Part shown: in pieces, positions 40,413-57,464 of the stretch
Layout of the letters: the number at the start of each line of letters is the position of its first letter
How positions within the stretch are numbered: position 1 is the first letter of the stretch
From: Streptomyces sp. PCS3-D2
Lineage (GTDB): Bacteria; Actinomycetota; Actinomycetes; Streptomycetales; Streptomycetaceae
Direction: 5' to 3'
NCBI RefSeq assembly: GCF_000612545.2
Contig: NZ_CP097800.1
Location: forward strand, 3,573,001 to 3,637,000
DNA length: 64,000 bases
Translations under genes and position numbers: made by a program
Notes under the pieces: model-generated
The model's input: the letters and a program-made list of their open reading frames with translations, nothing else
The model's database searches: none
What the model was told of the DNA's origin: nothing

Positions 40413-40486
40413 GCGGATGTAGTTTAATGGTAGAACATGAGCTTCCCAAGCTTATAGCGCGGGTTCGATTCCCGTCATCCGCTCCA
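40413..40486 (+). tRNA. tRNA-Gly (anticodon CCC)
   Basis: A cloverleaf folds cleanly: acceptor GCGGATG/CATCCGC, D-arm with AATGGTA, anticodon stem TGAGC/GCTTA with loop TTCCCAA (anticodon CCC), T-arm GCGGG-TTCGATT-CCCGT, discriminator T and an encoded CCA (40484-40486). It is the apparent target of the adjacent integrase. Confidence 0.95.
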
Positions 40487-40491
40487 CGATA

Positions 40492-40518
40492 AAGCCCCAG
40501 GTCAGCGACCTGGGGCTT
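40492..40518 (+). terminator. Terminator after tRNA-Gly
   Basis: A perfect 12-bp stem (AAGCCCCAGGTC, loop AGC) is followed by a T-rich tail (GTTTGTTGT), a classic intrinsic terminator. The 25-base core GCCCCAGGTC-AGC-GACCTGGGGC is repeated at 58431-58455. Confidence 0.9.
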
Positions 40519-40612
40519 GTTTGTTGTCTAGACCCATTGAGGCTCGCGTGCCATTCGCGTGCCATAACTTCCCTAATGGGGCGTCAGGTTGGTGGCGTGC
40601 CCCTTGTGCGGA

Positions 40613-41821
40613 TCACCTCGCCCGAGCGGACCGACCAGACGCCGACGGCGAGGGCACGAACATGCGCCCGGTCCCGGCGAGGCTGGGCCGCCCGCTGTCG
40701 CCGGGCACCCGCTGGAGCCGGACGGTAGCGTCGATGTCGTCGGCGAGCCTGCGCTGATGCTCCTTCGTGGAGTGCTGGTAGATCAGCTGGGCCCGCTCCG
40801 ATGACTGGCCCGCGCGGACCATGAGGTCCTTCAGCTTGGCACCGGTGTCGGCGGCGAGGGTGTTCCCCGTGTGGCGCAGGTCGTAGAAGCGGAACTCGTT
40901 GGGCATGCCGACCGCCTCACGGGCCTTGCGCCACTTCCGACCGAAGGACGTACCACGCAGGGGCGCACCCTTCTCGCCCACGAAGACGAGGCCGTCGGGT
41001 CCGTCCTCGGCAAACCACTCCAGGTGCCGGCGGACGTCCAGAAGCACGAAGCTGGGCAGCATGATCTCCCGCTTGCCCGCACGGGACTTCGGATCCCCGA
41101 TCACCCTGTGCCCCGTGTTCAGCTCCGGGGCAGCCCTGCGCACGCGGACCGAGCCCGCGTCGAGATCGACGTCGGCGCGGCGCAGCTCGGCCAGTTCCTC
41201 CGGCCGCATGGAGGCGAAGGCCCCCAGCAGGACCATCAGCCGCCAGCGGATCCCGATGGCCTCGGCGAGCGCGAAGACCTGCTCGACGGTGGCCACGGGC
41301 CGCTCGTCGGCGTCCTCGCGCCCCGCACCTCGGATCGAACACGGGTTGCGGCGGATCAGCTCGTCCTCGACCGCCGTCTGCATGATCGCCTTCAGCAGCC
41401 GGTAGGACTTGGCCGTCGTGGTCTTGCCGGTCGCCTTCAGCCGTTCCGCGCGCCAGGTCCTGACCTTGGCGGGGCTGATGGCATTGACGTACTCCTCCCC
41501 GAAAGACGGCTCCAGGTGGAGACGCAGGAGCCGTCGGTACAGCTCGTCGGTAGTGGCCGCGATGCCCCGCTCCTCGATCCAGCGCAGGGCGTACTCGGCG
41601 AACAGCACCTCGCCGGCGGTCGGGTCGATCCAGTCTCCGCGGGCCTGGTCGGCCTGGACCTGGGCAAGGAACAGCTCCGCTTCCCGCTTGCTCTCGTACG
41701 TCTGCGGGGCGGGTCGCAGCACGCCGTCCGTACCGGGATAGCGGGCCTGGTATCGGCCCGAGGGGAGAGCGCGGATCGCGCCGAAGCTGCGGCGCGGGGC
41801 CCGTCTGCGGGAACGCGGCAC
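40613..41821 (-). CDS. Site-specific tyrosine recombinase (integrase)
   Basis: A 402-residue phage-type integrase. An Arm-type N-terminal part (RYQARYPGTDGVLRPAPQTYESKREAELFLAQVQ) and a SAM-like core-binding domain (residues 65-165) precede the catalytic domain. Catalytic positions: Arg in FASMRPEELAELRRADVDL (about 203), Lys in VIGDPKSRAGKREI, FYDLRHTGNTLAADTG (about 314) and Tyr in AQLIYQHSTKEHQRRLADDI (about 347). In the HxxR box the first His is replaced by Tyr (YDLR), a tolerated variation. It lies 130 bases from tRNA-Gly, pointing to it. It ends immediately after the excisionase-like gene (stop 41822), so the two are coupled. Confidence 0.93.
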   Translation of the reverse strand: MPRSRRRAPRRSFGAIRALPSGRYQARYPGTDGVLRPAPQTYESKREAELFLAQVQADQARGDWIDPTAGEVLFAEYALRWIEERGIAATTDELYRRLLRLHLEPSFGEEYVNAISPAKVRTWRAERLKATGKTTTAKSYRLLKAIMQTAVEDELIRRNPCSIRGAGREDADERPVATVEQVFALAEAIGIRWRLMVLLGAFASMRPEELAELRRADVDLDAGSVRVRRAAPELNTGHRVIGDPKSRAGKREIMLPSFVLLDVRRHLEWFAEDGPDGLVFVGEKGAPLRGTSFGRKWRKAREAVGMPNEFRFYDLRHTGNTLAADTGAKLKDLMVRAGQSSERAQLIYQHSTKEHQRRLADDIDATVRLQRVPGDSGRPSLAGTGRMFVPSPSASGRSARAR

Positions 41822-42049
41822 TCAGACCACCAGCCCGTAGCCGGCGCGGCGTCCGCGGACGGGCTCGACGGTCCGCTCGGCGATGTACGCGGTCAGCACG
41901 CTGTCGGCGATGCGGACGTGCTTGCCGAGCTTGACGTAGCGGATACGCCGCTCGGCGATGAGGCGGCGGATAAAGCGCACGCCGGTACCGAGACGCTCCG
42001 CGGCTTCCTCGACCGTGAGGAGACGGTCGTTCGTGTTCACCTCCTTCAC
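41822..42049 (-). CDS. Excisionase-like helix-turn-helix protein
   Basis: About 75 residues: NDRLLTVEEAAERLGTGVRFIRRLIAERRIRYVKLGKHVRIADSVLTAYIAERTVEPV. This is the MerR-like/excisionase helix-turn-helix, in which LTVEEAAERLG forms the recognition region and RYVKLGKHVRI the wing. It is expected to direct integrase towards excision. The stop abuts the integrase start (41821/41822). The start is uncertain: GTG 42049 or GTG 42040, the latter with AAGGAG immediately adjacent. Confidence 0.82.
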   Translation of the reverse strand: MKEVNTNDRLLTVEEAAERLGTGVRFIRRLIAERRIRYVKLGKHVRIADSVLTAYIAERTVEPVRGRRAGYGLVV

Positions 42050-42226
42050 CGCACCGGATTCCTCGGCATTTACATTTCGGCTCTTCCCGCCCGCCCCATC
42101 GGCGGCGAGGTTTTTGCGGGCAGGGGGTATCGGCGATCGACGCAAGAGTTCCCTCTCGTGAAATGGGCAGGGGTGTGGCAGGGGACGGGACAACGGGTGC
42201 ACCGACAGCAACCAATGGTCTGGAGA

Positions 42227-42251
42227 ATCCCCGGTTTCGGAAACCGGGGAT
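42227..42251. terminator. Perfect hairpin just after the XRE gene
   Basis: ATCCCCGGTTT and AAACCGGGGAT flank a CGG loop (11-bp perfect stem) and begin 6 bases after the XRE gene stop on the minus strand. It may be a terminator or an operator near the excisionase promoter. Confidence 0.65.
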
Positions 42252-42257
42252 CGTCGG

Positions 42258-42530
42258 CTATATTGCGCCCGCCCCGGCCTCCGGCGGGTTCCCGAGAAGG
42301 GTCTGCGGCGGTGTTCCGAGGGCGGCTGCGATGGCGACGAGGTCGTCCACGTCGCAGCGTCGGACGTTGCGTTCGATGCGCGAGAGCGCGGTGAAGGTCA
42401 TGGGCCGGCCAAGGGCACGGACGCGGGCGGCGAGCTGGCGCTGAGAGCAGCCGCGGGCGACACGGGTGCGCTCGATGGCGCGGGCGGTGGCTCGGCCGGC
42501 GGGGCCGATTTCAAGAGATCGTGGTGGCAT
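42258..42530 (-). CDS. XRE-family repressor, 90 aa
   Basis: A small Cro/CI-type DNA-binding protein. The HTH lies near residues 18-60 (RAIERTRVARGCSQRQLAARVRALGRPMTFTALSRIERNVRRCDVDDLVAIAAALGTPPQTLLG). It is the probable maintenance repressor of the element, being divergent from the DUF3631 ATPase gene across 271 bases that contain a TGCCGTCA inverted repeat. There is no separate dimerisation domain. Confidence 0.82.
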   Translation of the reverse strand: MPPRSLEIGPAGRATARAIERTRVARGCSQRQLAARVRALGRPMTFTALSRIERNVRRCDVDDLVAIAAALGTPPQTLLGNPPEAGAGAI

Positions 42531-42579
42531 TGGTGTGTTGTAGCTTCCGCCGCGACCCTATAGGAACCTCTTTCCTGTC

Positions 42580-42608
42580 TGCCGTCAGCGATACGCTCGA
42601 TGACGGCA
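42580..42608. promoter_or_regulatory. Inverted repeat with ATGACGGCAG motif
   Basis: TGCCGTCA (42580-42587) and TGACGGCA (42601-42608) form an 8-13-8 inverted repeat in the divergent region. ATGACGGCAG at 42600 recurs twice at 48670 and 48682, suggesting one regulator at both loci. Confidence 0.5.
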
Positions 42609-42801
42609 GCAATTTCGGTGACCGGGATTCGGGGGATACGGTTCTGGGCCGGAAACCCTTCAGGAGTTCTAGAGCCAGCTCTGGACTTCTGGGTCTGGTG
42701 TGTGGCTGTGTTGTCCACGCACCCCGGCCACGCCGGATTTCCCTTCCCAATTCCCGAGAGGTGACCGCTAGCGCGGCACCCGAAAAGGAGCCGCCCCCTT
42801 G

Positions 42802-44064
42802 ATGCCCAATACCCCTGACCCCGTCACCGCCCCGCCCAAGGCGGTCTGGCCGCCGGTGGCCGTACCCGGGCAGCCCGACGCGCACCGGACCGTCCCGGAG
42901 GACTCGGTCACGGAACCGAAGGCTTCGCCGCCACAACCCCTCTCCGCTCCGATCGGCCCCCGCGCGCAAGGCGACCAGGTGCTGGCCGACCTGGCCGCGC
43001 AGATCGAGCGGTACGTGGTGCTGCCGAGCCCAGAGGCGCTCACAGCGGTGACGCTGTGGGTGGCGGCCACGCACCTGCAGACGGTGTGGCAGCACGCGCC
43101 GCGGCTGGCGGTGGTGGGGCCTGCGAAGCGGTGCGGCAAGTCGCGCCTCCTGGACGTGATCACCGAGACCGTCCACGACCCACTGATCACCGTGAACGCC
43201 TCGGCTGCGGCGATCTTCCGGTCGATCGGCGAGTCGGATCCGCCGACCCTGCTGGTGGACGAAGTCGACACGATCTTCGGCTCGGCGAAGGTCGCGGAGA
43301 AGAACGAGGAGCTTCGGGGCCTGCTCAACGCGGGCTTCCAGAAGAGCCGTTACACGCTGCGCGTCGCCGGACCGAACCACGAGGTGGTCCGCTTCCACAC
43401 CTTCGCGATGGCCGCCCTCGCCGGCATCGGCGATCTGCCCGACACGATCATGGACCGGTCCGTGGTGATGCGGATGCGTCGCCGCCGGAGCGGCGAGAAG
43501 GTCTCGGAGTTCCGCGCCTTCCGCGACACCCCAGCCCTGCACGTGGTGCGCGACCGCCTCGCCGCGTGGCTGCGCCCGCGAGGCAAGGAAGCGATCGGGC
43601 TGATGCCCGTCTCCATGCCAGTGGAGGACAGGGCTGCGGACACCTGGGAGCCACTGGTCATCGTCGCCGACCTCGCCGGAGGCGACTGGCCCGAGCGTGC
43701 CCGCACCGCGTGCCGAGTGATGACCGCGCATGAGGCTGCCCTCGACCAGGACAACTCGCTGCACACCCGCCTCTTGGTCGACATCCGCCGTGCCTTCGCA
43801 GCTTGTGGCGACCCGGCTGCCCTGCCCACCAGGACGATCCTCACCATGCTCAACCGTGACGAGGAGGCCCCCTGGGCGAACGACGGCGCCCAGGGCCTGA
43901 TCCCGCGTCGCCTGCAGATCCTGCTGGATCCCTTCGCCATCAGGTCGTCCACGCGCCGCTTCCCCGAGGGGACCCAGGCCAAGGGCTTCACCCGCGCCCA
44001 GTTCATGGACGCATGGGACCGGTACTGCCCGTCCGAAACCCCATCGGAGCCGTCCGGGACGTGA
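42802..44064 (+). CDS. DUF3631-domain ATPase
   Basis: About 420 residues. After a Pro-rich N-terminus, a P-loop ATPase is seen: VVGPAKRCGKSRLLDVI (Walker A) and TLLVDEVDTIFG (Walker B), then VRFHTFAMAALAGIGDLPDTIMDRSVVMRMRRRRSGEKV, typical of DUF3631. These occur on actinomycete elements and phages and are thought to act like helicase/primase-associated ATPases in replication. The C-terminal 100 residues (ILTMLNRDEEAPWANDGAQGL) fit the same family. ATG 42802 (TTG 42799 adjacent) has AAAAGGAG 11 bases upstream. Confidence 0.85.
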   Translation: MPNTPDPVTAPPKAVWPPVAVPGQPDAHRTVPEDSVTEPKASPPQPLSAPIGPRAQGDQVLADLAAQIERYVVLPSPEALTAVTLWVAATHLQTVWQHAPRLAVVGPAKRCGKSRLLDVITETVHDPLITVNASAAAIFRSIGESDPPTLLVDEVDTIFGSAKVAEKNEELRGLLNAGFQKSRYTLRVAGPNHEVVRFHTFAMAALAGIGDLPDTIMDRSVVMRMRRRRSGEKVSEFRAFRDTPALHVVRDRLAAWLRPRGKEAIGLMPVSMPVEDRAADTWEPLVIVADLAGGDWPERARTACRVMTAHEAALDQDNSLHTRLLVDIRRAFAACGDPAALPTRTILTMLNRDEEAPWANDGAQGLIPRRLQILLDPFAIRSSTRRFPEGTQAKGFTRAQFMDAWDRYCPSETPSEPSGT

Positions 44065-44106
44065 CCGTCCCGACCCGTCCCACTCGTATCAGCGCAGGTC
44101 AGCGCG

Positions 44107-44332
44107 GGGACGAGTCGCAAGGGCGGGACGGGTGGACCCGTACCACTCGCCACATCCAAGAGCCGTCGGCCAGCTCTGGCGGCCCACCTGCCGCACCCGT
44201 CTCTTTCATACTCGTCCCACCCGCCCCAGGCAGGTCAGCACAGGGACTGCTCGCCGCTCCGGGACGAGTCCAACCCGTACCGCTCTGCTACCCGTACCGC
44301 CTCTGACCAGGCACGGGACGAGTGGGACGAGT
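44107..44332. repeat. Cluster of GGGACGAGT repeats between the DUF3631 and DUF2637 genes
   Basis: The 330-base gap after the DUF3631 gene holds GGGACGAGT at 44107, 44261, 44315 and 44324 and its complement at 44210, plus near matches such as CCCACTCGT at about 44086 and repeated CCCGTACC. Short direct repeats of this kind are typical of plasmid/AICE cis-acting loci (clt-like) or iterons. No gene is seen in this gap. Confidence 0.65.
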
Positions 44333-44393
44333 CTTCACCCGCCACGGCCGCCACCACTGGCAGCCGCCTCCACCACCCCAGGGAGCCTCACGC

Positions 44394-45212
44394 TTGCCCT
44401 CGCACAACCCCGCCTCCGCCACCTCGGCCCAGCCCTTCCGGATATCCCTGGCCGAGGCGATCCGCACCGGAGTGGCCTTGATGGCCCTGGCCGCGTTCGC
44501 GCTCTCCTACGACGCGTTGCGCCAGATGGCCGCCGCCAGCCACATCCACCCCGCGCTCACCTACGCCTTCCCTCTGGTCGTCGACGGGTTCATCGCCATC
44601 GGGATCGGCGCCCTGCTCGTACTGCGGACCGTCCACTTGCGAGCCCGCCTGTATGTGGCCGCCCTGGTGAGCCTGGCCACCGCCACCAGCATCTGGGCGA
44701 ACGTGCTCCACGCCGTCCGCCTCAACCAGCAGACCGGCCACACGGGGCTGCTGCTGCTGGACGACGTCACCGTCGGTGTCATATCCGCCATCGCCCCGCT
44801 CGCCTTGGCCGGAGCTGTCCACCTGTACCTCATCGTCCAACGCCACCCGGCACACCTGGAGCCACAGATCCCGGCCCCGACGATTAACAGGCCCATGCGC
44901 CCCCGGCCCGGACGGGGCACCGCTGCTGAGCCCGAACCGCAGCCCGCTGAAAAGGTGGCTCAGCCACAACTCGAGCAAGTGGCTGAGGCCGGGAAGCCCC
45001 CCGTCGAACGCTTCGGCCAGACCGTCGCCACCTTCGAGCAGGTGGTCGAGATCGGGCGCGCGGCCCCGCGGGGCCGCGGCGGCAGGGTCTCGCGCCGCCG
45101 CATCGAGGAGGCCGTTCGCGCCAAGGGCCTGGGCGCGGGCAAGGACCTCCTCGAAAGGGCCAAGAAGGATCTCCAGGCAGAACTCGATGCCGCCCAGGCA
45201 GACGCTGCCTGA
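44394..45212 (+). CDS. DUF2637 (SpdB-like) membrane protein
   Basis: A 272-residue protein. TTG 44394, preceded by GGGAG 8 bases upstream, is the preferred start (LPSHNPASATSAQPFRISLAEAIRTG). Residues 20-150 hold four membrane helices (GVALMALAAFALSYDALRQMAAAS, YAFPLVVDGFIAIGIGALLVLRT, YVAALVSLATATSIWANVLHAV, ISAIAPLALAGAVHLYLIVQR), the DUF2637 pattern. The C-terminal 120 residues are charged and end in a helical basic region (SRRRIEEAVRAKGLGAGKDLLERAKKDLQAEL). DUF2637 proteins are linked to plasmid spreading (Spd) in Streptomyces. Confidence 0.85.
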   Translation: MPSHNPASATSAQPFRISLAEAIRTGVALMALAAFALSYDALRQMAAASHIHPALTYAFPLVVDGFIAIGIGALLVLRTVHLRARLYVAALVSLATATSIWANVLHAVRLNQQTGHTGLLLLDDVTVGVISAIAPLALAGAVHLYLIVQRHPAHLEPQIPAPTINRPMRPRPGRGTAAEPEPQPAEKVAQPQLEQVAEAGKPPVERFGQTVATFEQVVEIGRAAPRGRGGRVSRRRIEEAVRAKGLGAGKDLLERAKKDLQAELDAAQADAA

Positions 45213-47163: not shown

Positions 47164-48582
47164 TCACCGGACGAGGACGGACGTCGGGGTGGCCGTGAAG
47201 GCTTCGATCTCCTCGCGGAGGCCGGCCGCCGCCGCGCCTCGGTTGCGCCTGCCTTCGACCTGGAGTGCGGAGTGGACCCGCTGGGCGCTGCTGGTGATGC
47301 CGAAGTTGCGCTGCTCGATGGGGAGGTCGAGTACCGGCTGGACGGCTTCGATGGCGCCTTCGATCTCGCCGCGGGCGATGCGCGCGAGGGCGAGGTCGGT
47401 CTGCGCGCCGGCCTCGTCGCCGAAGGCCCATTCGTCTTCCGTGGCGGTGCGGTACGCGGCGACGGCGGCCTCGGACTGGCTCTCGCCGAGAGCGGGGTCC
47501 TCGCCGAGGTGCACGGTGGCCTCGGCGACGTAGTACAGCTGCCGGGGCACCGGGAAGGTCATGATGCCGCCGAAGGCATCGAGGTCGTCGGGTTCGGCGG
47601 CCGTACGGGCTTCCTCGGCCTGCTGGATAGCGGTACGGGTGGCTTCGCCGTCGCCGAGGAGGGCGTGGGCACGGGCGGAGAGACAGGCCAGCCAGACGCT
47701 GGTGGTGCCGCGGACGTTGCCCGCCGCACCGAGGCCGAGGGTGGCGTAGTCGGCGGCCTCGGAGGGGCGCCCGGCCCAGTAGGAGATGAGCGACTGCAGG
47801 GAGCGGACCCAGGCGCGCATGGCGTGGTGGTCGGCGTTGTCGGCGCAGACGAAGGCGGTGCGGGCCTGCATCATCGCGGCACTGGGGTTGCCCAGGTCGT
47901 GGCTCGCTTTGGCGAGCATGCCGGAGGTGATGCCGGCGAGCAGATAGAGATCGCGGGCCTGCAGGGGCTTGACCCGGCCGTGCTCGAGGAGCCGGAAGGT
48001 GAGGTCCTGTACCTCGACCAGGTCGCCGAGCAAGGTCGGCAACGCGAGCCTCGGGTAGGCGACGGTGAGCCGTCGCACTTCGTCATGGATCTGGCCCAGG
48101 GTCTCCGGGCCGATGCTGCTGCCCTCCGCCAGGGCGGTGAACCTGAGCGCACGACGAGCCGCCATCGCGACCTGCCTTTCCAATTCCGTGGTGCCCGCGT
48201 CGAGGCGGGACTCGCTGCTGAACGGGCCACCAGCAGGCAGTGCCGCTGCCCGCTCGGAGGGGAGAAGGACAGGGGCTGGCCGTGGCGGTGGGACGACGAT
48301 CGGGGTATCGACCGCAGGCGTGGGAGCGAGAAGACGATCGACGCTGACGCCGAACATCGCCTCCAGCACTCGGCACTGGTCCGGGTAGGGGCGGGTCTTG
48401 ACCGCACCGCCGTACCAGCGTTCGAACTGCCGCTTGGAGACCGACAAGCCTTGAAGCCGACGGTCGTTCTGCTCCTCCGCGACCGTGTTGGCGGTCGCTT
48501 CGAACCGGAGGCGGAAGGTCTCGTAGACCTGCCAGTGCCGCTGCAGCGTCAAGACCCGTAAGAGCGTGGGAGTTTCAGCCAC
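47164..48582 (-). CDS. Large regulator: HTH-like N-terminus and TPR-like sensor
   Basis: A 472-residue protein starting at GTG 48582, with GAGAGGA 6 bases upstream. Residues 1-80 resemble an atypical XRE-type helix-turn-helix (TLQRHWQVYETFRLRFEATANTVAEEQNDRRLQGLSVSKRQFERWYGG, VLEAMFGVSVDRLL). A Pro-rich linker and about 330 residues of TPR-like helical repeats follow (ARTAFVCADNADHHAMRAWVRSLQSLISYWAGRPSEAADYATLGL), as in peptide- or ligand-sensing regulators. It is divergent from the six-gene operon starting at 48936; the shared region has ATGACG repeats. It probably controls that operon and its own. Confidence 0.8.
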   Translation of the reverse strand: MAETPTLLRVLTLQRHWQVYETFRLRFEATANTVAEEQNDRRLQGLSVSKRQFERWYGGAVKTRPYPDQCRVLEAMFGVSVDRLLAPTPAVDTPIVVPPPRPAPVLLPSERAAALPAGGPFSSESRLDAGTTELERQVAMAARRALRFTALAEGSSIGPETLGQIHDEVRRLTVAYPRLALPTLLGDLVEVQDLTFRLLEHGRVKPLQARDLYLLAGITSGMLAKASHDLGNPSAAMMQARTAFVCADNADHHAMRAWVRSLQSLISYWAGRPSEAADYATLGLGAAGNVRGTTSVWLACLSARAHALLGDGEATRTAIQQAEEARTAAEPDDLDAFGGIMTFPVPRQLYYVAEATVHLGEDPALGESQSEAAVAAYRTATEDEWAFGDEAGAQTDLALARIARGEIEGAIEAVQPVLDLPIEQRNFGITSSAQRVHSALQVEGRRNRGAAAAGLREEIEAFTATPTSVLVR

Positions 48583-48669
48583 CGCAGATCCTCTCCGTCC
48601 CCGTTCGCCTGGTCTGACGATAGCCATGGCCGATCAGCGGGAAACCCGTTCGACGGCTTGGCGGCTGAG

Positions 48670-48935: not shown

Positions 48936-49766
48936 ATGGAAACTCCGACCGCTCTGGCAGGGCAGATCGCCCAGCTGGACGCCGTGGACTCCGCCCAGCT
49001 GGAGCGGATGCGCCACGAGGCCCTGACGGCGCAGGCGCCCTGGAAGGCGGAGTACGGCGCCTACCAGTCGGGGGGCTGGTGGACGACCTCGCTGATGAAC
49101 GCCTCCGGTGACGCCGCCGACGTGACGATCGGCGACTGCGCGGCCAGGCCGACGGACCTGCTGGCCCAGATGCCGGACACCGCCGCGCTGCTGGCCGAAC
49201 TGGGCCTGAACTACATGTGGGTGCGGCTCGCCCGGCTGGAGGCCAACGCCTTCCTCTGGGAGCACCGCGACTACGACGAGCTCGACCAGGTGGAGCGGCA
49301 CCGGCTGCACATCCCGCTCCACACCAACTCATCGGCCTACCTGGTCACCGGCGGCACCAAGGTCCACATGACCGGCGGGCGGATCTGGCGGCTGACGCCG
49401 ACGTACGCCCACGGGGTCTGCAACCTGCTCGGCCCCGACCGGATCCACCTGATCGCCGACGTGTACGCCGACGACGCCTACCGGCGCCTGGCCCGGCACC
49501 CCTCGCTCCACCCGACCGCCGTCGAGCCGCTCCCCGCGATCAACGAGACGATCACCGCCGAGCGGCTGCAGGCCGCCCGCGCCATGGCCGACCTGGGCTA
49601 CACGGAGGCGGCCGAGCGCATGCTGCTGCGGCTCTTCTACGCCTACGCCCTGCCGGAAGGCACGGTCTACGACCTGATCGCCGAGCTCCACACCTCGCTC
49701 GGTGACGAAGAGGCCGCGACGCGCTGGGCCTCGGCCAAGCGCCGCCTCCTCGCCCTCACCGCCTGA
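48936..49766 (+). CDS. Aspartyl/asparaginyl beta-hydroxylase-like enzyme
   Basis: A 276-residue Fe(II)/2-oxoglutarate-dependent hydroxylase of the Asp/Asn beta-hydroxylase family. The double-stranded beta-helix shows FLWEHRDYDELDQVERHRLHIPLHTN (metal HxD near residue 110), HMTGGRIWRLTPTYAHGVCNLLGPDRIHLIADVY (second His near 158 and the 2-oxoglutarate-binding Arg near 168). The C-terminal 80 residues form a helical extension. Soluble bacterial members act on free or carrier-bound amino acids or peptides. ATG 48936 has GGGAGGG upstream. First gene of the six-gene operon, 44 bases before the next. Confidence 0.85.
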   Translation: METPTALAGQIAQLDAVDSAQLERMRHEALTAQAPWKAEYGAYQSGGWWTTSLMNASGDAADVTIGDCAARPTDLLAQMPDTAALLAELGLNYMWVRLARLEANAFLWEHRDYDELDQVERHRLHIPLHTNSSAYLVTGGTKVHMTGGRIWRLTPTYAHGVCNLLGPDRIHLIADVYADDAYRRLARHPSLHPTAVEPLPAINETITAERLQAARAMADLGYTEAAERMLLRLFYAYALPEGTVYDLIAELHTSLGDEEAATRWASAKRRLLALTA

Positions 49767-49810
49767 CCACCCGCAAGTCCAACCCGCCGGAATCCGAACG
49801 GAGGACGCGC

Positions 49811-50683
49811 ATGCCCACCCTGCACCTGGCCGAACTCACCCACGCCAACCGACCCGCCCAGCTCCCGCTCCTGTCGAGCCTCGCCGACATCCTGGCCACC
49901 TCGCAGGCCGTCACCCACCTGATGGTCCGCGGTTCGCTGGCCCACGGCACCGCCGACCGCCTGTCCGACGTCGACTTCGTCGTCGGCGTCCACGACGCCC
50001 AGCTGCCCGCGTTCGTGAAGGCGCTGGACGACCTGATGTCCATCGAGGCCGGCGCCCTGCTGCCCGGCTGGCGCGACACGATCGTCGCCGACCTCGGCGG
50101 CGTCGGGATGGTCTTCCTCGTCCCGGACGAGGGCAGGCTGCACCAGATCGACCTCTACCTCGTGCCCGCCACCCGCATCCCGCGCCTGCGGGCAACGGTC
50201 GCCACCGCCTCGATCCTCGAACGGGAGCTGGCACCCTCCGGCCCTGAGGCGGTCCTGACTGCCGAGCGGTTCGCCGCGGAGTTCCTCGCCCGGCCGCGTA
50301 CGTGCACCGAGCTGCTGATCGAGCACCTGGTGCTGGCCGTACTGCTGCACAAGCGCATCAAGCGGGGCCAGCGCTTCGTCGCGTACTCGGAGTGGCACCG
50401 GCTCCACACCGCGACGAAGGACCTCATCAAGGCTGCCCTGGCCCCGGGGTCCCGGTTCTGGGGCTGGTACCAGCTGCGCGAGGAGATCGCCGTCACCCCG
50501 ATCGGCCGGGCCTGCCTGGGCGACCTGGATGCGGCGATCGGTGGGCCGGCCGTCCCGCTCGCCGAGGACGTGGACGCGGCCATCGCGCGGATGCTCGCGC
50601 TGGTCGAGCGGGCTTGCCCCGAGGCCCTCGACGGGCTGGGCGACTCCATCGCCGCCTACCGCACGTACCAGGAGCTGGTGTGA
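49811..50683 (+). CDS. Nucleotidyltransferase (aminoglycoside/lincosamide-type fold)
   Basis: A 290-residue protein with the pol-beta nucleotidyltransferase signature: VTHLMVRGSLAHGTADRLSDVDFVVGV (GSx10DxD near residues 40-56), followed by a helical C-terminal domain. Typical members transfer NMP groups to hydroxyls of antibiotics or metabolites. The metal-binding acidic pair is present and the rest resembles family members with small-molecule acceptors, so transfer to a small molecule is more likely than tRNA modification. ATG 49811 has GGAGG upstream. The stop overlaps the next start by 4 bases (GTGA). Confidence 0.82.
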   Translation: MPTLHLAELTHANRPAQLPLLSSLADILATSQAVTHLMVRGSLAHGTADRLSDVDFVVGVHDAQLPAFVKALDDLMSIEAGALLPGWRDTIVADLGGVGMVFLVPDEGRLHQIDLYLVPATRIPRLRATVATASILERELAPSGPEAVLTAERFAAEFLARPRTCTELLIEHLVLAVLLHKRIKRGQRFVAYSEWHRLHTATKDLIKAALAPGSRFWGWYQLREEIAVTPIGRACLGDLDAAIGGPAVPLAEDVDAAIARMLALVERACPEALDGLGDSIAAYRTYQELV

Positions 50684-51279
50684 ACGCACTCCACCTCGCG
50701 GGCCCGGCCACCAGCTGGGCCCGCGAGGGCCTGACCGCCGTGTTCTTCGGCGGTGTCGTCCCCGCCTCCGCCGAGGAGGAGAGCCTGGCCGAGGAGATCG
50801 GCCGGGCCCTGGCCCAGGCCGGGTACTCGCTCCTGCACGGCGGCTACAACGGGCTGATGGAGGCCGCCGCCCGCGGAGCGAGCTCCGAAGGAGCCACGGT
50901 CACCGCGGTCACCCTGACCGGAAAGCACGACGAGTGGGGACCGTTCAACCCGCATGCCACCAGCTCGGTCCACCTCCACGACCTCGGCGCGCGGCTCAAC
51001 CACTACCTGAGATACGCCGATGTGATCGTCGCGATGGGCGGTGGCGTCGGCACACTGCACGAGCTCACCGCCGCCCTGTACTACGCGACCACCATCCGGC
51101 CCGTACCGGTCTTCCTCGCCGGGTCGGCTGCCCTTCGCCTGCTCGCGTTCCTGCGGCAGGAGAAGTGGCTGTACGAGACCCCGACGCGGCCACTCGGTTT
51201 CCTCACCGCCGTCGAATCCGCCGCCGCCGTCCGCACCTGCCTCGCCACGCTGGACACAGCCCCGATCGGAGAAGCATGA
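50680..51279 (+). CDS. LOG-like nucleotide/phosphoribohydrolase-type protein
   Basis: A 199-residue Rossmann-like protein of the LOG/TIGR00730 superfamily. Motifs: LTAVFFGGVVPASAEEE, AGYSLLHGGYNGLMEAAARGASSEGATVTAV (GGxxGLM, nucleotide loop) and VIVAMGGGVGTLHELTAAL, the counterpart of the PGGxGTxxE active site, with GGGVGT in place of PGGxGT. LOG enzymes release free base from nucleoside 5'-monophosphates. Loss of the Pro and spacing differences make exact activity uncertain. It starts GTG 50680 and is coupled to both neighbours by 4-base overlaps. Confidence 0.82.
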   Translation: MNALHLAGPATSWAREGLTAVFFGGVVPASAEEESLAEEIGRALAQAGYSLLHGGYNGLMEAAARGASSEGATVTAVTLTGKHDEWGPFNPHATSSVHLHDLGARLNHYLRYADVIVAMGGGVGTLHELTAALYYATTIRPVPVFLAGSAALRLLAFLRQEKWLYETPTRPLGFLTAVESAAAVRTCLATLDTAPIGEA

Positions 51280-51827
51280 CCGCCAGCACGACGCCGGCCG
51301 GCCTCACCGCCAGGCTCGCCGAAACCGCCTGCGTCACCGCCCCGTTCCAGCTCGCCGACGGCGCCCGGCTGGATGCCTACTTCGACGAGTACCGGCTGGC
51401 CGCCGACCCCGCACTCCTGCACGACACCGCCGCCGCCCTGGCCGGTCTCGTGCCCGCCGACGCCCAGCTGCTGGCCGGGGTCGAGCTCGGCGGCGTCCCC
51501 CTTGTCGTCGCCCTGTCCGCGGCCACCGGTCTGCCCGCCGTCTTTCTGCGCCGCCGGCCGAAGGGCTACGGATCCCGGCGACAGATCGAGGGCGCCTCAC
51601 ACACCGGCCGCCGCACCGTCCTCGTCGACGACGTGGTCCGCTCCGGCGGCCAGCTCCTGAAGATGGCCCGTACCCTGCGGATCGCCGGGGCTCCCGTGAC
51701 CGACGCGATGTGCGTGCTGGAGCGCCCGCTCGGAGGCCGCCTGCTGCTGGCCGAGCACCGCGTCACCCTGCACTCCCTGCTCACCGAGGCCGACCTGCCG
51801 CCATCTCAAGGTGGTGCTGCCGCATGA
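51276..51827 (+). CDS. Orotate phosphoribosyltransferase-like protein
   Basis: A 183-residue type I phosphoribosyltransferase resembling PyrE. QLADGARLDAYFDEYRLAADPALLHDTAAAL corresponds to the substrate-binding start, FLRRRPKGYGSRRQIEGA to the flexible loop and TVLVDDVVRSGGQLLKMARTLR to the PRPP motif (DDVVRSGG). The genome has a canonical pyrE at 12221-12784, so this copy is likely specialised for another base or for salvage. Next to a LOG-like enzyme and a HAD phosphatase, conversion of a nucleobase/nucleotide pair is a sound inference. The ATGA overlaps on both sides imply translational coupling. Confidence 0.82.
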   Translation: MTASTTPAGLTARLAETACVTAPFQLADGARLDAYFDEYRLAADPALLHDTAAALAGLVPADAQLLAGVELGGVPLVVALSAATGLPAVFLRRRPKGYGSRRQIEGASHTGRRTVLVDDVVRSGGQLLKMARTLRIAGAPVTDAMCVLERPLGGRLLLAEHRVTLHSLLTEADLPPSQGGAAA

Positions 51828-52495
51828 AGAGGGCCGTACTCTTCGACCTCGACGGGGTCCTCCTCGACAGCCATGCCGCCCAACTCGCCACCCTGGCCGG
51901 GTTCGCGACTTCCGCGCTCGACCGCCGCGTCACCGTCGCCGACCTCCCCACCGGTGCGGCAACCGTGCCGCGGCAGCAGGTCCTGGCGGAACTCGGACTG
52001 AGCGGAGCGATCAACGACGACGGCTGGGACGCGGCCACCGCGACGGCGAGCCTCGGAACCGAAGTCTTCCCGTTCGTGGGCGAGACCCTAACGGCCCTCC
52101 GGGCCGCAGGTGTCGCCACGGGCATCGTGACCCTGCGAAGCCACCGCAGAGTCGGCTGGCTGCTGCCGCCGGACGTCGTCGACCTGATCGACACCGTCGT
52201 CTGCTTCGAGGACGCGGCCCCCAAGCCCGCGCCCGACGGGCTGCTCCTCGCCCTGCGGCAGCTCGACGTCGCACCGGAGGGCGCCGTGTTCGTCGGTGAC
52301 ACGGAGCTCGACGTCCACGCCGCCCGGGCGGCAGGCGTACGAGTCGTCGGGGCGGGATGGGGCTTCGCCGGTCCCGAGGCCCTCAGCCGGGCCGGCGCCG
52401 ACCTCGTCCTGCCGCACGCGGCAGCGCTCGCCGACGTACTGCTCCTCCTTCTGGCGGGAGCCGCGCCTTCCCACCAAATCATCAAGCGATCTTGA
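51824..52495 (+). CDS. HAD-superfamily phosphatase
   Basis: A 223-residue HAD hydrolase: AVLFDLDGVLLDSHAAQLATLAG (nucleophile Asp8, acid Asp10), VATGIVTLRS (motif II, Thr in place of the usual Ser/Thr), DAAPKPAPDG (motif III Lys) and AVFVGDTELDVHAARAAGV (motif IV GDxxxD). All catalytic residues are present, so a functional phosphatase of phosphoglycolate/nucleotide type is expected. It is the last of the four overlapping genes; a structured hairpin follows the stop before the AlaRS gene. Confidence 0.88.
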   Translation: MKRAVLFDLDGVLLDSHAAQLATLAGFATSALDRRVTVADLPTGAATVPRQQVLAELGLSGAINDDGWDAATATASLGTEVFPFVGETLTALRAAGVATGIVTLRSHRRVGWLLPPDVVDLIDTVVCFEDAAPKPAPDGLLLALRQLDVAPEGAVFVGDTELDVHAARAAGVRVVGAGWGFAGPEALSRAGADLVLPHAAALADVLLLLLAGAAPSHQIIKRS

Positions 52496-52514
52496 TGCCT
52501 GACCCGCTACTCTG

Positions 52515-52566
52515 GGTGGTGCAGCGCGCACAGGATGACTGCATCCATGTGGGCTGCTGCACCACC
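52515..52566. terminator. Two-tier hairpin between the HAD gene and the AlaRS gene
   Basis: GGTGGTGCAGC (52515-52525) pairs with GCTGCACCACC (52556-52566), and an inner helix CAC-GGATG pairs with CATCC-GTG around ACTG. It may terminate or attenuate transcription into the AlaRS gene, which has 159 bases of leader after it. Confidence 0.7.
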
Positions 52567-52725
52567 TGTGAGCAACGGATCAGGAGTCATGGTCTACACC
52601 GTGGGGGCGCGAGCTATCTGCGTCGAGCTGGAGAACTGAGAACCCTCAGTCCCTGTTCTCGGCCCGGCTCGGCGTGTGATCAACCCCCACCTCTCCACGA
52701 CTCTTTCCGTGAGGGCCACACCACC

Positions 52726-55380
52726 ATGCGCTCGACGCAGATCCGCTCCACCTTCCTGGACTTCTTCACCTCGCGCGGCCACCGCCAGGTCCCGTCCAGC
52801 CCGCTCATCCCCTCCGACCCGACCCTGCTGCTCGCCAACGCCGGCATGAACCAGTTCAAGCCCTACTTCCTGGGCGAGGTCACCCCGCAGTACCCCCGCG
52901 CCACCACCATCCAGAAGTGCGCCCGCACCTCCGACATCGACAACGTCGGCCGCACCAACCGGCACGCCACGTTCTTCGAGATGATGGGCAACTTCTCCTT
53001 CGGCAACTACTTCAAGGCCGACGCCATCGCCTACGCCTGGGAACTCCTCACCCAGGGCTACAACCTGGAGAAGGACCGCCTCTGGATCACCGTCTACGAG
53101 GACGACGACGAGGCCGAGCAGCTGTGGCGGAAGATCGGCGTCCCCGCCGAGCGCATCCAGCGCCTGGGCATGGAGGACAACTACTGGTCCATGGGCGTCC
53201 CCGGACCGTGCGGCCCCTGCTCGGAGGTCAACTACGACCGAGGGCCGGCCTTCGGCCGCGAGGGCGGACCCGCCGTCGACGGCGAACGCTACGTGGAGAT
53301 CTGGAACCTCGTCTTCATGCAGTACCAGCGCGGCGAGGGCGACAAGAAGGGCAACTTCCCGATCCTCGGCGAGCTCGCCCAGCAGAGCATCGACACCGGC
53401 CTCGGCCTCGACCGCCTCGCCGCGATCCTTCAGGACGTCGAGAACGTCTGCACCACCGACCTGCTCATGCCCACCCTGAACATCGTCCGGGAGCTCGCCG
53501 GCCGCGACTACCCCGGCAACGGCGAGGAGAAGGTCTCCTTCCAGGTCGTCACCGAGCACGCCCGCTCGATCGCCTACCTCATCGCCGACGGCGTCCTGCC
53601 CGCCAAGGACGGCCGCGGATACGTCCTGCGCCGCCTCATGCGCCGGGCCATCCGCCACGCCCGCCTGCTGGGCATCGACCAGCCCGTCCTCGTCCCCGCC
53701 ACTGCCACCGTGATCGCCAACCTCGGCGACGTCTGGCCGGAGCTCACCGACCAGGCCAACCTCATCGAGCAGGTCGTCACAGCCGAGGAAGATTCCTTCA
53801 CCCGTACCCTCACGCAGGGCACCCGGCTGCTGAACGCCGCCATCATGCGCACCCGGGAGAGCCGCTCCGGCTCACTGCCGGGCGAGACCGCCTTCGAACT
53901 TGCCGACACCTACGGCTTCCCCCTGGAGCTGACCGTCGAGGCCGCCCACGACGCCGGCCTGACCGTCGACGAAGACCGCTTCGCCACGCTGCTGGACGAG
54001 CAGAGGAAGCGCGCCAAGACCGGCGGCAAGGCCAAGACCGCCGACGCCCTGCGCCGCCAGGACACCTACCGGGAGCTGTCCGCCCACCTGCCGCGCACCG
54101 GCTTCCTCGGCTATGAGCACCTCACCTCCGAGGTCACCGTGCTCGGCCTGATCTCCGGCGGGGCCGTCACCACCAGCGCCCCCGAGGGCTCCGACATCGA
54201 GTTCGTCCTCGACCGCTCGCCCTTCTACGCCGAAGCCGGCGGCCAGGTCGGCGACACCGGCACCCTGCGCACCGAAGACGGCACCCTGCTGCGGATCACC
54301 GACACCCGGTACGGCCTGGAGGGCTTCCGCGTCCACAGCGCCCGCGTCCTCGAAGGCGAGCTCCGCACCGGGGCGAGGGGCGAAGCCACTGTCGACGCCG
54401 ACCGCCGCAAGGGCCTCATGCGCTCCCACTCGGCCACCCACATCCTGCACGCCGTCGTGCGCACCACCCTCGGCGACCACGCCCGCCAGCAGGGCTCCCT
54501 CGTCGAGTCCGACCGCCTGCGCTTCGACTTCGCCCACTTCTCCGCGGTCGCCCCCGAGCAGCTCTCCCGGATCGAGGCCGCCGTCAACGGCCACGTCCTC
54601 GACGACCCGGCCGTCCGCGCCTGGCACGCCGACCGCGCCGAAGCCGAGGCCGCCGGCGCCATCGCCCTGTTCGGCGAGAAGTACGGCGACACAGTCCGCA
54701 TCGTCGACATCGGCGACTTCTCCCGCGAACTGTGCGGCGGCACCCACGTCGCCCACGGCTCCCAGGTCGGCACCTTCCGCCTGCTCAGCGAAGGCTCGAT
54801 CGGTTCCAACCTCCGCCGCATCGAAGCCCTGACCGGCCACGGCGCCCTCCGCCACCAGGACACCGAGCGCCGCCTGCTCGACGAGGTCTCCGCCCTCCTC
54901 ACCACTCGCCCCAAGGACGCCCCCGAAACCCTCCGCAAGCGGCTCGACGCTCTCAGCACCGCCCAGCAGGAACTCGGCCGCCTCCGCCAGACCGAGCTAC
55001 GGAACCGAGCCCAGCAGCTCGCTGCCTCAGCCCGCCAGGTCGCCGGCGGCCGGATCGTCACCCAGAAGGTGACGGACCTCGGCCCCGACGAGCTGCGCAC
55101 CCTGGCCGCCCATACCGCCGATCTCCTCAACGGCGACCACGCCGTCGTCGTCTTCGCCACCGGACACACCGGCAAGGCCCACCTCGCCGCCGCCGTCACC
55201 CGCAGCCTCCACGACACCGGCGTCCAGGCCAGCCAGATCCTCACCGCCGCCGCCCGCAGCGTCGGCGGTGGAGCCGGAGGCAAGGGCACCGTCGCCAGCG
55301 CCGGCGGGCGCCGCACCGAGGCCCTCGACCAGGCACTGGCCATCGCCACCGAGGACGCCGCCCGCGTCCTCAGCCGGTAG
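52726..55380 (+). CDS. Alanyl-tRNA synthetase, apparently a second copy in an accessory operon
   Basis: An 884-residue alanyl-tRNA synthetase. Class II catalytic motifs are MRSTQIRSTFLDFFTSRGHRQVPSSPLIP and SDIDNVGRTNRHATFFEMMGNFSFGNYF; the editing domain has SHSATHILHAVVRT (zinc HxxxH) and ELCGGTHVAHGSQVG (about 669). The C-Ala domain ends with AARSVGGGAGGKGTVASAGG. All parts are present, so it is a full enzyme. Streptomyces carry a housekeeping alaS elsewhere on the chromosome; this copy in an accessory operon may provide resistance to an AlaRS inhibitor or supply alanyl groups. ATG 52726 gives the family N-terminus. Confidence 0.95.
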   Translation: MRSTQIRSTFLDFFTSRGHRQVPSSPLIPSDPTLLLANAGMNQFKPYFLGEVTPQYPRATTIQKCARTSDIDNVGRTNRHATFFEMMGNFSFGNYFKADAIAYAWELLTQGYNLEKDRLWITVYEDDDEAEQLWRKIGVPAERIQRLGMEDNYWSMGVPGPCGPCSEVNYDRGPAFGREGGPAVDGERYVEIWNLVFMQYQRGEGDKKGNFPILGELAQQSIDTGLGLDRLAAILQDVENVCTTDLLMPTLNIVRELAGRDYPGNGEEKVSFQVVTEHARSIAYLIADGVLPAKDGRGYVLRRLMRRAIRHARLLGIDQPVLVPATATVIANLGDVWPELTDQANLIEQVVTAEEDSFTRTLTQGTRLLNAAIMRTRESRSGSLPGETAFELADTYGFPLELTVEAAHDAGLTVDEDRFATLLDEQRKRAKTGGKAKTADALRRQDTYRELSAHLPRTGFLGYEHLTSEVTVLGLISGGAVTTSAPEGSDIEFVLDRSPFYAEAGGQVGDTGTLRTEDGTLLRITDTRYGLEGFRVHSARVLEGELRTGARGEATVDADRRKGLMRSHSATHILHAVVRTTLGDHARQQGSLVESDRLRFDFAHFSAVAPEQLSRIEAAVNGHVLDDPAVRAWHADRAEAEAAGAIALFGEKYGDTVRIVDIGDFSRELCGGTHVAHGSQVGTFRLLSEGSIGSNLRRIEALTGHGALRHQDTERRLLDEVSALLTTRPKDAPETLRKRLDALSTAQQELGRLRQTELRNRAQQLAASARQVAGGRIVTQKVTDLGPDELRTLAAHTADLLNGDHAVVVFATGHTGKAHLAAAVTRSLHDTGVQASQILTAAARSVGGGAGGKGTVASAGGRRTEALDQALAIATEDAARVLSR

Positions 55381-55444: not shown

Positions 55445-56005
55445 TCACCGCCCGCGTCCGCCCTCCACCAGCCCCTTCCGCAGGACCAGGCTGTCGTAGT
55501 TCGTCACATCCCACCGCCACGTCCCAACGGGCGTATAGCCGCGGCGGCGATACCAGCTGATCAGCTCGGCGGCGTCAGCAGAGGTGTCGATGACCACCGC
55601 ATCGGAGCCCATCGCAGCGATGCGTTCCTCCGCCAACGACAGCAGCCACTGCCCAAGACCCGACCCCCGGTGCGCGGGGTCCACGGCCAGCTGCCAGAAC
55701 GAGCCCGAGCCGTCCCCGGCCGGATAGCCCTCCGGAACCTCGTGCGAAGCCGCCAGCGTCACGGTGCCCACCAGCTCGCTTCCCTGCAGGGCCACCCAGC
55801 ACTCACCCCGGCCCAGCCGGTAGGCCGTGTCCTCGGCCGACTGGTACGAGGCGAAGAAGACTCGGCCCTCAGCGGCATGGCCCGAGTAGGCACGGTGAAG
55901 TAGACGGGTCAGTGCCGCAACGGAGTCGCCTTGGGTGAACGGTCTCACCACGACCGCCTGCCGGCCGCTGAGCCGCATCGACGCACCTATGGATGGCCTG
56001 TCCAC
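55445..56005 (-). CDS. GNAT-family N-acetyltransferase
   Basis: A 177-186-residue GNAT protein. Features: VVRPFTQGDSVAALTRLLHRAYSGH, VGTVTLAASHEVPEGYPAGDGSGSFWQLAVDPAHRGSGLGQWLLSLAEERI (acetyl-CoA loop HRGSGLGQ) and YRRRGYTPVGTWRWDVTNYDSLVLRK at the end. The acceptor is unknown; small-molecule or N-terminal acetylation are typical. Start either GTG 56005 (MDRPSIG) or ATG 55978 (MRLSGRQ), the latter closer to the family start. It is convergent with the AlaRS operon. Confidence 0.85.
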   Translation of the reverse strand: MDRPSIGASMRLSGRQAVVVRPFTQGDSVAALTRLLHRAYSGHAAEGRVFFASYQSAEDTAYRLGRGECWVALQGSELVGTVTLAASHEVPEGYPAGDGSGSFWQLAVDPAHRGSGLGQWLLSLAEERIAAMGSDAVVIDTSADAAELISWYRRRGYTPVGTWRWDVTNYDSLVLRKGLVEGGRGR

Positions 56006-56169: not shown

Positions 56170-56238
56170 TGAGGTTCCCCCGAGATGCGGGGTGGGGTGA
56201 CAGAGGGTCAGATGGGTCTCATGAGAGGAGCCCAGACG

Positions 56239-56550
56239 ATGCCTGCCCCGAGAAAGTACCCGCTGGAGTTGCGTGAGCGTGCGGTCCGGATGTACCAGAC
56301 CGCCGAGCCGAAGCCCGTGATCCGCCGCATGGCCGAGGAACTCGGCGTGCACCACGAGGCCCTGCGTAACTGGATCCGTCAGGCCGAGGCCGACGCCGGC
56401 GAACGAGGCGACCTGCTCACCACCGCCGAGCGCGAGGAGCTCGCCGCTCTGCGGAAGGAGAATGCCCAGCTCAAGCGGGCGAACGAGATCCTCAAGGCCG
56501 CCTCGGCTTTTTTCGCCCAGGAACTCGACACGACCCGGCGAAGGTACTGA
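56239..56550 (+). CDS. IS3-family transposase OrfA
   Basis: A 103-residue HTH protein. ATG 56239 has GAGGAG 9 bases upstream; MPAPRKYPLELRERAVRMYQTAEPKPVIRRMAEELGVHHEALRNWIRQAEADAGE is the typical OrfA helix-turn-helix, followed by a leucine zipper (ELAALRKENAQLKRANEILKAASAFFAQEL). The slippery heptamer lies near its end, where -1 shifting leads into OrfB. An upstream ATG at 56185 lies within the terminal repeat and is unlikely to be used. Confidence 0.93.
   Translation: MPAPRKYPLELRERAVRMYQTAEPKPVIRRMAEELGVHHEALRNWIRQAEADAGERGDLLTTAEREELAALRKENAQLKRANEILKAASAFFAQELDTTRRRY
56508..56514 (+). other. T TTT TTC programmed -1 frameshift heptamer
   Basis: The heptamer lies in the correct phase of OrfA (codons GCT TTT TTC), and OrfB is in the -1 frame, matching the X XXY YYZ rule for IS3-family slippage. 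Confidence 0.85.
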
Positions 56551-57464
56551 CGTTCCTCGACGAACGCGGTGATCTCGGTGTCGAGCCCGTACTCCGGGAA
56601 CTGCACATCCCCTCCTCCACCTACTACCGCTGGCGCCAGGCGGTGAAGGAGCCGTGCGAGCGACGCCGCAGGGACGCGGAGCTGACGGGCAGGATCCGCC
56701 AGGTCCACGAGGAGTCCGGCGGCATCTACGGCTCACCCCGAGTGCACGCCGTCCTCAGACGCGAGGGCACTCGCGTCGGCCGTAAACGGGTCGAACGGCT
56801 CATGCGGGAAGCCGGCCTGGCAGGGATCAGCCCCCGCAAGTCCAAAGGCTTCACCCGCCGCGACCCGGACTCCGACCTCGCACCCGACCTGGTCAGACGC
56901 GACTTCACCGCCGACGGGCCGAACCGGCTGTGGGTCACCGACCTGACCATGATCCCCACCGGGGAGGGGCCGCTGTGGCTGTCCGCGATCCGCGACGCGT
57001 TCTCCCGCCGGGTCGTGGCCTGGGAAACCTCCGCCCGCGCCGACGCCGACCTGGTCCTCACCTCGCTGGAATACGCCCTCGCCAGCCGCGAGCCCGCCCC
57101 CGGCGAGCTCGTCCATCACGCCGACCACGGCTGTCAATACACGTCCGTGAAGCTCACAACACGCCTGGTCAGGGCCGGCATCCAGGCGTCCATGGGCTCG
57201 GTCGGCGACTCGTACGACAACGCCCTCGCGGAGAACCTGTGGATGGTCATCAAGACCGAATGCATCCGCAGCCGCGTCTTCGCCACACGTGCCGAGGCGA
57301 ACCTCGCGCTCTTCGAGTACATCGACGGCTTCTACAACCCCCGCCGCATCCAGAAACGGCTCGGCTACCTCAGCCCCATCGAGTACGAGGAGAAGCACTA
57401 CACCAACCAGGCAACGACCGAACAAGTGAACCTGAAACCACGTCAACCCGCTCTGACCAGCTAG
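56511..57464 (+). CDS. IS3-family transposase OrfB (made as OrfAB by -1 frameshift)
   Basis: The frame after the slippery heptamer reads RPGTRHDPAKVLTFLDERGDLGVEPVLRELHIPSSTYYRWRQAV, then the DDE integrase domain (rve): NRLWVTDLTMIPTGEGPLWLSAIRDAFSRRVVAW (first Asp), HHADHGCQYTS (second Asp) and GDSYDNALAENLWMVIKTE (catalytic Glu). The DDE triad is intact. Independent initiation at GTG 56643 would lose the first 45 residues, so frameshift expression is more likely. Confidence 0.9.
   Translation, partial: FRPGTRHDPAKVLTFLDERGDLGVEPVLRELHIPSSTYYRWRQAVKEPCERRRRDAELTGRIRQVHEESGGIYGSPRVHAVLRREGTRVGRKRVERLMREAGLAGISPRKSKGFTRRDPDSDLAPDLVRRDFTADGPNRLWVTDLTMIPTGEGPLWLSAIRDAFSRRVVAWETSARADADLVLTSLEYALASREPAPGELVHHADHGCQYTSVKLTTRLVRAGIQASMGSVGDSYDNALAENLWMVIKTECIRSRVFATRAEANLALFEYIDGFYNPRRIQKRLGYLSPIEYEEKHYTNQATTEQVNLKPRQPALTS

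Follow-up and report, generated by a model that had tools for sequence, protein, structure and literature searches.

A leader with an invariant alanine codon precedes interchangeable candidate immunity genes beside a rare five-gene core in soil actinobacteria

We analysed a 64,000-nt stretch of the Streptomyces sp. PCS3-D2 genome (contig NZ_CP097800.1, positions 3,573,001 to 3,637,000; hereafter the window). It carries a set of five genes, here called the core, encoding a hydroxylase, a nucleotidyltransferase (NTase), a LOG-family protein, a phosphoribosyltransferase (PRTase) and a HAD phosphatase. All run in a single direction (+) and are followed by a gene for an accessory alanyl-tRNA synthetase (AlaRS; Table 1). 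The core probably makes a nucleotide-type toxin acting against AlaRS or Ala-tRNA, with the last gene serving as immunity that would be induced by ribosome stalling at an Ala codon in its leader. We also propose, with somewhat more doubt than confidence, that these loci form a new family of small mobile clusters, in which an AlaRS-directed nucleotide antibiotic is paired with an Ala-codon attenuator driving either an AlaRS that is insensitive or a kinase that inactivates the drug. The points that we infer from sequence are ribosome stalling, how attenuation works, AlaRS insensitivity, the metabolite with its chemistry, induction, and resistance. New in this work are the leader before AlaRS, the same leader before a kinase, leader units lacking the core, an independent AlaRS beside the core, and the invariance of the Ala codon. 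No published description of the operon or leader was recognised in the open-access literature searched, mostly at the level of listings.

The last gene is exchanged between loci. In type I loci, such as the window, it encodes AlaRS. In type II loci an APH-family phosphotransferase replaces AlaRS after the core, on the same strand and in the same place (L037, L039, the plasmids L079-L083, and L125). The L081 kinase matched PF01636, and the L079 kinase was identified from BLAST only, the record being unannotated there. The type II genome G052 contains no operon-type AlaRS. Type I and type II gaps contain the same leader in an equivalent position. The gap between HAD and AlaRS was 220-283 nt in 24 of the 25 loci measured, the exception being the frameshifted L031; the L041 gap is taken from an over-long HAD frame. 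Between HAD and the kinase the gap was 193-225 nt in all seven type II loci measured.

The -10-like site of the putative promoter for the last gene reads TACAGT in many relatives and is also present in three loci without an adjoining core (L116, L100 and L126). The leader peptide is MVYTVGARAICVELEN or a shorter form in Streptomycetaceae type I loci, MVGRRASRAELGNEDRVLA in two Micromonosporaceae, and MRVMRRRAPGVELEY/H with variants in type II loci. Among 13 leader codons, the Ala codon alone keeps its residue in 27 of 27 aligned leaders, as GCT (21), GCG (4) or GCA (2). In the window it is GCT, at 52613-52615, and the outer stem of the second hairpin begins 4 nt past it. The invariance rests on this 27-row alignment because our motif-pattern scan itself demanded GC at the Ala codon; in that scan L036 was out of register, and L041 and L100 gave no match. 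Near-duplicates (L016, L019, L020, L022, L045, L078 and L079) and L027, L043, L100, L149 and L150 were kept out of it. In the same 27 leaders 99.7% of outer-stem cells were paired. For the whole 21-pair structure the figure was 91.8%, against 22-43% when the partners were slid.

We also checked the leader for other kinds of control. At gathering score in the window, no Rfam leader family matched. T-box control was rejected on the same search, in which tRNA alone reached the gathering score and lower scores were not searched. The macrolide-type arrest motif is R-x-R. It occurs in type II leaders but is missing from the window leader peptide, and was also rejected.

Leader and immunity gene occur together without an intact core in seven places, five with AlaRS and two with the kinase. 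A leader covariance model, R1, matched nine of 296 Streptomyces genomes: six with operon-type AlaRS, the type II genome G052, and G286 and G191. Several of these nine supplied sequences to the model, though G286 and G191 did not; both carry a full-length kinase and leader beside core remnants. A class-wide search of 394 genomes returned eight, comprising three with the core, G519, G442, and three weak matches (G356, G342 and G399; E 0.002-0.008) lying in or antisense to unrelated coding frames, which were taken as chance. Leader plus AlaRS without an adjoining core was found on plasmid pSGZL (L116), in L100 (from the S. zagrosensis genome that also holds L047), and in L126, L149 and L150 (from G189, G519 and G442, respectively).

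Plasmid pSGZL also carries type I-E CRISPR-Cas genes (L116:15813-20649) close to its leader and AlaRS. Four further Streptomyces plasmids (H56-H59) matched the leader over 35-37% of the query and were rejected as full leaders. They hold only about 45 bp from the 3' portion of a type II leader (L154:6001-6046), apparently a relic. H56 and H58 were retrieved, and base-by-base reading of L154 (H56) revealed no leader open reading frame (ORF), and a BLAST search for the kinase likewise gave no match.

The accessory AlaRS is not the cell's sole copy. The initial annotation had taken it for a second AlaRS, and the 7.6 Mb genome in fact holds three alaS genes, at C1:6282664, C1:3625726 (the window copy) and C1:3648905 (beyond the window), ruling out the window gene as the only one. 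By inspection, C1:6282664 has a housekeeping setting, with rpsD upstream and mltG, aroE and aroC downstream. Every related genome that carries an operon-type or convergent AlaRS (28 of 28) also had another alaS; the copy survey covered the genomes of 33 of 37 loci (L015, L021, L027 and L040 were left out). G519 and G442 each have a second alaS besides the leader-linked one. In the tree, operon-type AlaRS forms its own clade, separate from housekeeping copies (L015, L021, L024 and L031, with a frameshift or contig end, were omitted). In four Nocardia loci and Kibdelosporangium, the AlaRS after the core is convergent. The two compared, from L034 and L038, share 57-58% identity with the Streptomyces housekeeping copy and 45-46% with that of the window. 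By inspection, the other alaS precedes mltG-like genes in all five convergent-AlaRS genomes. With three outgroups (Paenibacillus, Acetoanaerobium and Azospirillum), a single clade for operon-type and convergent AlaRS was rejected (approximately unbiased (AU) test, p = 1.6e-6); groups were defined by gene neighbourhood and this test was made after the first tree had been seen. On this phylogenetic evidence, the Nocardia and Kibdelosporangium AlaRS beside the same core is independently acquired.

Most operon-type AlaRS differ from the other copies at position 303 (E. coli numbering), which together with D400 we take to read the G3:U70 pair of tRNA-Ala. Of 25 operon-type proteins compared, 21 have K here, namely all 21 from Streptomycetaceae. 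The four from Micromonosporaceae have N, as do all 17 housekeeping and all five convergent AlaRS compared. D400 is kept in every one of these proteins, and the L149 and L150 AlaRS have both N303 and D400. K303 may alter how the tRNA is read. An "Asp-plus-Asn" rule for AlaRS is described in excerpts of PMC12945691.

Two other settings of alaS genes were seen. The third alaS of the genome scored 750 bits against TIGR00344, with the aligned D400 replaced by A. It lies in a region (L007:3899-18108; C1:3648899-3663108), beside a P450, a methyltransferase and a class II aminoacyl-tRNA synthetase-like protein (PF00152), together with a carrier and condensation protein, a major facilitator superfamily protein and two ATP-grasp proteins. 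This is probably another biosynthetic cluster with synthetase-like enzymes. An IS3-type element, recognised by inspection, occurs twice between the operon and this alaS, the two copies being inverted and separated by about 8 kb (window 56185-57464 and L006:8494-9773). A further accessory AlaRS clade follows tsaD in L095:479-4437, L099:2821-6939 and L117:8360-12667, a recurrent but different pair; tsaD is annotated in L117, where a GNAT gene separates it from alaS, and was recognised by inspection in L095 and L099.

We favour self-immunity for the last gene because two unrelated proteins swap behind one leader and occur linked to it where the core is missing or broken, and also because one of the two duplicates an enzyme of a class already known as an antibiotic target. 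Ala-tRNA formation is the favoured target since AlaRS has been recruited twice and the Ala codon persists in kinase-type leaders. The five core enzymes would yield a small toxic compound of nucleotide type, one that blocks AlaRS or otherwise lowers Ala-tRNA. This product is likely a nucleotide or nucleoside that bears a modified amino acid or mimics alanyl-adenylate, as suggested by the enzyme families. In the presumed chemistry an amino acid would be hydroxylated, the LOG protein would free a base, the PRTase would re-attach it, HAD would dephosphorylate and the NTase would nucleotidylate. The last gene, a distinct AlaRS in type I and an APH-like kinase in type II, would protect the producer. 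It may form its own unit of promoter-like site, leader ORF, hairpin and immunity gene. A drop in Ala-tRNA would stall the ribosome at the leader Ala codon, where it would cover the 5' arm of the adjacent hairpin and allow expression of the immunity gene.

Alternatively, AlaRS may be an alanyl donor whose Ala-tRNA is used in making an alanylated nucleotide, much as AcmD serves AcmF in the ascamycin pathway. AcmD does feed Ala-tRNA to AcmF according to excerpts of PMC12945691, and the operon AlaRS is complete (tRNA-synt_2c, SAD and DHHA1 domains), retaining its catalytic, editing and C-terminal parts. However, type II cores have the kinase instead, which makes a required donor role unlikely. The genomes of L039 and L043 each contain a single alaS; among type II genomes in the copy survey only that of L039 gave an alaS match, that of L037 returning none and so being uninformative on copy number. 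Leader and AlaRS are also found without an adjoining core, and we saw no transferase, AcmF-like or otherwise, in the shared gene set. We thus consider a donor role unlikely. AlaRS might instead do both, charging tRNA for the pathway and protecting the cell, and a dual role is reported for AcmD (excerpts of PMC12945691). This faces the same objections, and type II loci would need to have lost the dual role; we regard it as improbable. The initial annotation had offered AlaRS as either target, with self-resistance, or alanyl source. The first option is favoured by the kinase swap, the core-less leader units and the independent Nocardia and Kibdelosporangium AlaRS, and the second is disfavoured by kinase-type clusters without AlaRS and the lack of a visible aminoacyl transferase.

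Several observations weigh against a toxin with a stalling-induced immunity gene. No U-tract follows the leader hairpin, and unmasking of the start site by a stalled ribosome, a candidate we rejected, did not appear consistently in 12 leaders folded with and without the masked stretch. The mean unpaired probability of the start site fell or stayed within 0.02 upon masking in 11 of the 12 (0.61 to 0.43 in the window; 0.35 to 0.37 in L036) and rose in one, the type II leader L083 (0.24 to 0.38). As a result of these two negatives, the attenuation mechanism is not established. Covariation was modest, both partners having changed in 2 of the 21 pairs, and the leaders are mostly close relatives. 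By eye, no leader was seen upstream of the Nocardia and Kibdelosporangium AlaRS, and without outgroups a single AlaRS clade was not rejected (AU p = 0.45). L043 has the core and a type II leader with an intact ORF (L043:11717-11900), then an unrelated frame with no kinase or AlaRS; the locus may be decaying, as its hydroxylase frame is short. The L126 AlaRS begins 625 bp into its contig and its core could therefore be on another contig, although an NTase search of G189 found none. Neither inspection nor BLAST with the window genes revealed a transporter in the shared gene set, a check short of a systematic search. In the AlaRS active site we identified no change that would give resistance, known resistance substitutions lying outside what was checked.

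The gene set is rare and mobile in soil actinobacteria. Searching with the LOG protein, we recovered 37 loci, distributed among Streptomyces, Kitasatospora, Micromonosporaceae, Nocardia and Kibdelosporangium. All five core genes were detected in 32 of them, counting the frameshifted L021; the lack of co-conservation that would have refuted the initial annotation was thus not seen. L027, L038 and L047 lack HAD, L044 lacks both PRTase and HAD, and L046 retains LOG alone. AlaRS lies beside the core in 31 of the 37 loci (26 on the same strand, 5 convergent) and the kinase in two. Overlaps recurred at NTase/LOG (37/37), LOG/PRTase (38/38) and PRTase/HAD (36/37), and a short gap separated hydroxylase and NTase in 32 of 37. 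Among the 296 Streptomyces genomes the NTase was found in six, operon-type AlaRS in six and both in five, a co-occurrence beyond chance (Fisher p = 2e-9, uncorrected for kinship) with one discordant genome each way. Class-wide, the NTase was present in three of the 394 genomes, the window's own included. By LOG match the core is also borne on plasmids (10 records); of the six examined, one has AlaRS and five the kinase.

Such a rare and patchy distribution, partly on plasmids, could also suit a defence or toxin-antitoxin system, in which the core product would be a nucleotide-type poison aimed at phages or competing plasmids, with AlaRS or the kinase as its antidote. SLOG proteins do occur in conflict systems, according to the excerpted literature. 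Yet PADLOC gave weak matches only (the NTase matched candidate PDC-S09 with a best E of 2e-4, and HAD a Hydrolase model with E 0.006) and the LOG protein had no match in 50,697 phage records, leaving this explanation improbable. Least likely is a stress operon in which an inducible spare AlaRS rescues translation beside unrelated nucleotide salvage genes: the leader would fit control by alanine or Ala-tRNA supply, but operon-type AlaRS occurs in 6 of 296 Streptomyces genomes, is tied to the core and is swapped for a kinase under the same leader. A core-made toxin with matched immunity remains our preferred explanation.

Gene calls and family matches agree with the six genes in one direction described by the initial annotation, including the 4-nt overlaps it reported among the middle four (NTase/LOG, LOG/PRTase and PRTase/HAD); hydroxylase and NTase are separated by a 44-nt gap. 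AlaRS likely starts at 52726, an alternative frame from 52357 adding 123 residues beyond the family match. With this start, AlaRS lies 230 nt past HAD and has its own leader, a feature that the initial annotation did not mention. The supposed large divergent sensor regulator is indeed divergent and matches a regulator family. A divergent regulator occupies the same position in the annotated plasmid loci L078, L080, L081 and L083. A Pfam search of the protein (47164-48627) found no domain, so the "sensor" label was not borne out. Taken as a whole, the interpretation offered by the initial annotation is partly supported.

Residues that we take to be catalytic for their families are invariant in all five core proteins. 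In the hydroxylase these are H110, D112, H159 and R169 (31/31 aligned relatives). Its relatives of solved structure by sequence comparison are 4p7w (L-proline cis-4-hydroxylase) and 1e5r (named proline oxidase, presumably a proline 3-hydroxylase); it scored 42.8 bits against TIGR04531 (nonproteinogenic amino-acid hydroxylase; cut-off 300) and passed PF05118. The NTase keeps its presumed catalytic residues in 31 of 31 aligned relatives. It has no clear sequence relative among known structures (best E 0.14), but the top fold match of its model (predicted local distance difference test score 89) is a structure named LinB, presumably a lincosamide nucleotidyltransferase, followed by aminoglycoside nucleotidyltransferases. 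In the LOG protein R105, G121-G122-x-G124 and E128 are invariant (24/24); it scored 61.9 bits against TIGR00730 (curated cut-off 96.35) and passed the Pfam LDcluster4 model. The PRTase keeps R92, K96 and D118-D119 (24/24), with 88.1 bits against TIGR00336 (orotate phosphoribosyltransferase; cut-off 106.8), and HAD keeps D8, D10, K134, D159 and D163 (22/22).

Table 1. Features of the operon, its leader and flanking genes (window coordinates).
Feature	Position	Strand	Basis or remark
NsdA-family TPR regulator	47164..48627	-	NF053720, 94 bits (cut-off 75); divergent from operon
2-oxoglutarate hydroxylase, AspH-type, proline-hydroxylase-like	48936..49766	+	PF05118, E 2e-15
NTase, small-molecule, candidate antibiotic-NTase fold	49811..50683	+	motif and predicted fold; Pfam matches weak, below cut-off
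LOG/SLOG-family putative nucleotide phosphoribohydrolase	50680..51279	+	PF18306, PF03641
PyrE-like PRTase	51276..51827	+	PF00156
HAD phosphatase	51824..52495	+	PF13419
-10-like hexamer TACTCT of putative promoter for last gene	52508..52513	+	sequence inspection only
5' hairpin of leader, GGTGGTGCAG...CTGCACCACC	52514..52566	+	inspection and folding
Leader ORF MVYTVGARAICVELEN	52589..52639	+	start uncertain: ATG 52589 or GTG 52601
Leader hairpin	52620..52675	+	12-bp outer stem, 52620-52631 with 52664-52675
Accessory AlaRS, 884 residues	52726..55380	+	TIGR00344, 842 bits (cut-off 457)
GNAT, convergent	55445..56005	-	same position in some Streptomyces/Kitasatospora loci only

To the left of the operon (window 40413-45212) lie a tRNA-Gly(CCC) and genes that we take to be DUF3631/DUF2637-like, of a kind found in integrative elements.

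Ribosome-mediated attenuators of amino acid and antibiotic-resistance genes combine a short leader ORF, a hairpin and a codon of the relevant amino acid. The window leader resembles these in having a short ORF overlapping a hairpin upstream of the last gene and a conserved Ala codon. It differs in its one fully conserved Ala codon, the lack of a U-tract, and its position before two unrelated proteins. Three of the core enzymes can be set against the LOG, orotate PRTase and amino-acid hydroxylase families: Pfam families and presumed catalytic residues are kept, whilst the named NCBIfam subfamily cut-offs are not reached. If our proposal is true, the operon is a compact route, five genes long, to a compound that inhibits Ala-tRNA formation, with immunity genes swapped behind a constant sensor. 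The leader would then predict the compound's target from the genome, as the attenuator codon names the tRNA that runs out, and would be a ready reporter for finding inducing conditions.

The sole described producer cluster with a resistant AlaRS that we found is that of ascamycin (acm), as excerpted in PMC4257720 and PMC12945691. It is also the nearest precedent, with an additional AlaRS encoded next to the genes for an alanyl-adenylate-like nucleoside. In these excerpts the acm cluster likewise encodes AcmV, an adenine PRTase, and the phosphatase AcmT, and AcmD confers self-resistance; AcmD is more ascamycin-resistant than canonical AlaRS and also supplies Ala-tRNA (PMC12945691). By contrast, the window operon is without sulfamate genes, AcmF and AcmE and has a LOG protein, an NTase, a proline-hydroxylase-like enzyme and the leader, AcmD being compared by description only. 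SbzA, an IleRS paralogue of the SB-203208 pathway, is likewise a second synthetase inside a biosynthetic cluster (excerpts of PMC12945691). Unlike SbzA, the synthetase of the window type can give way to a kinase downstream of a shared leader, and is also found accompanied by that leader alone.

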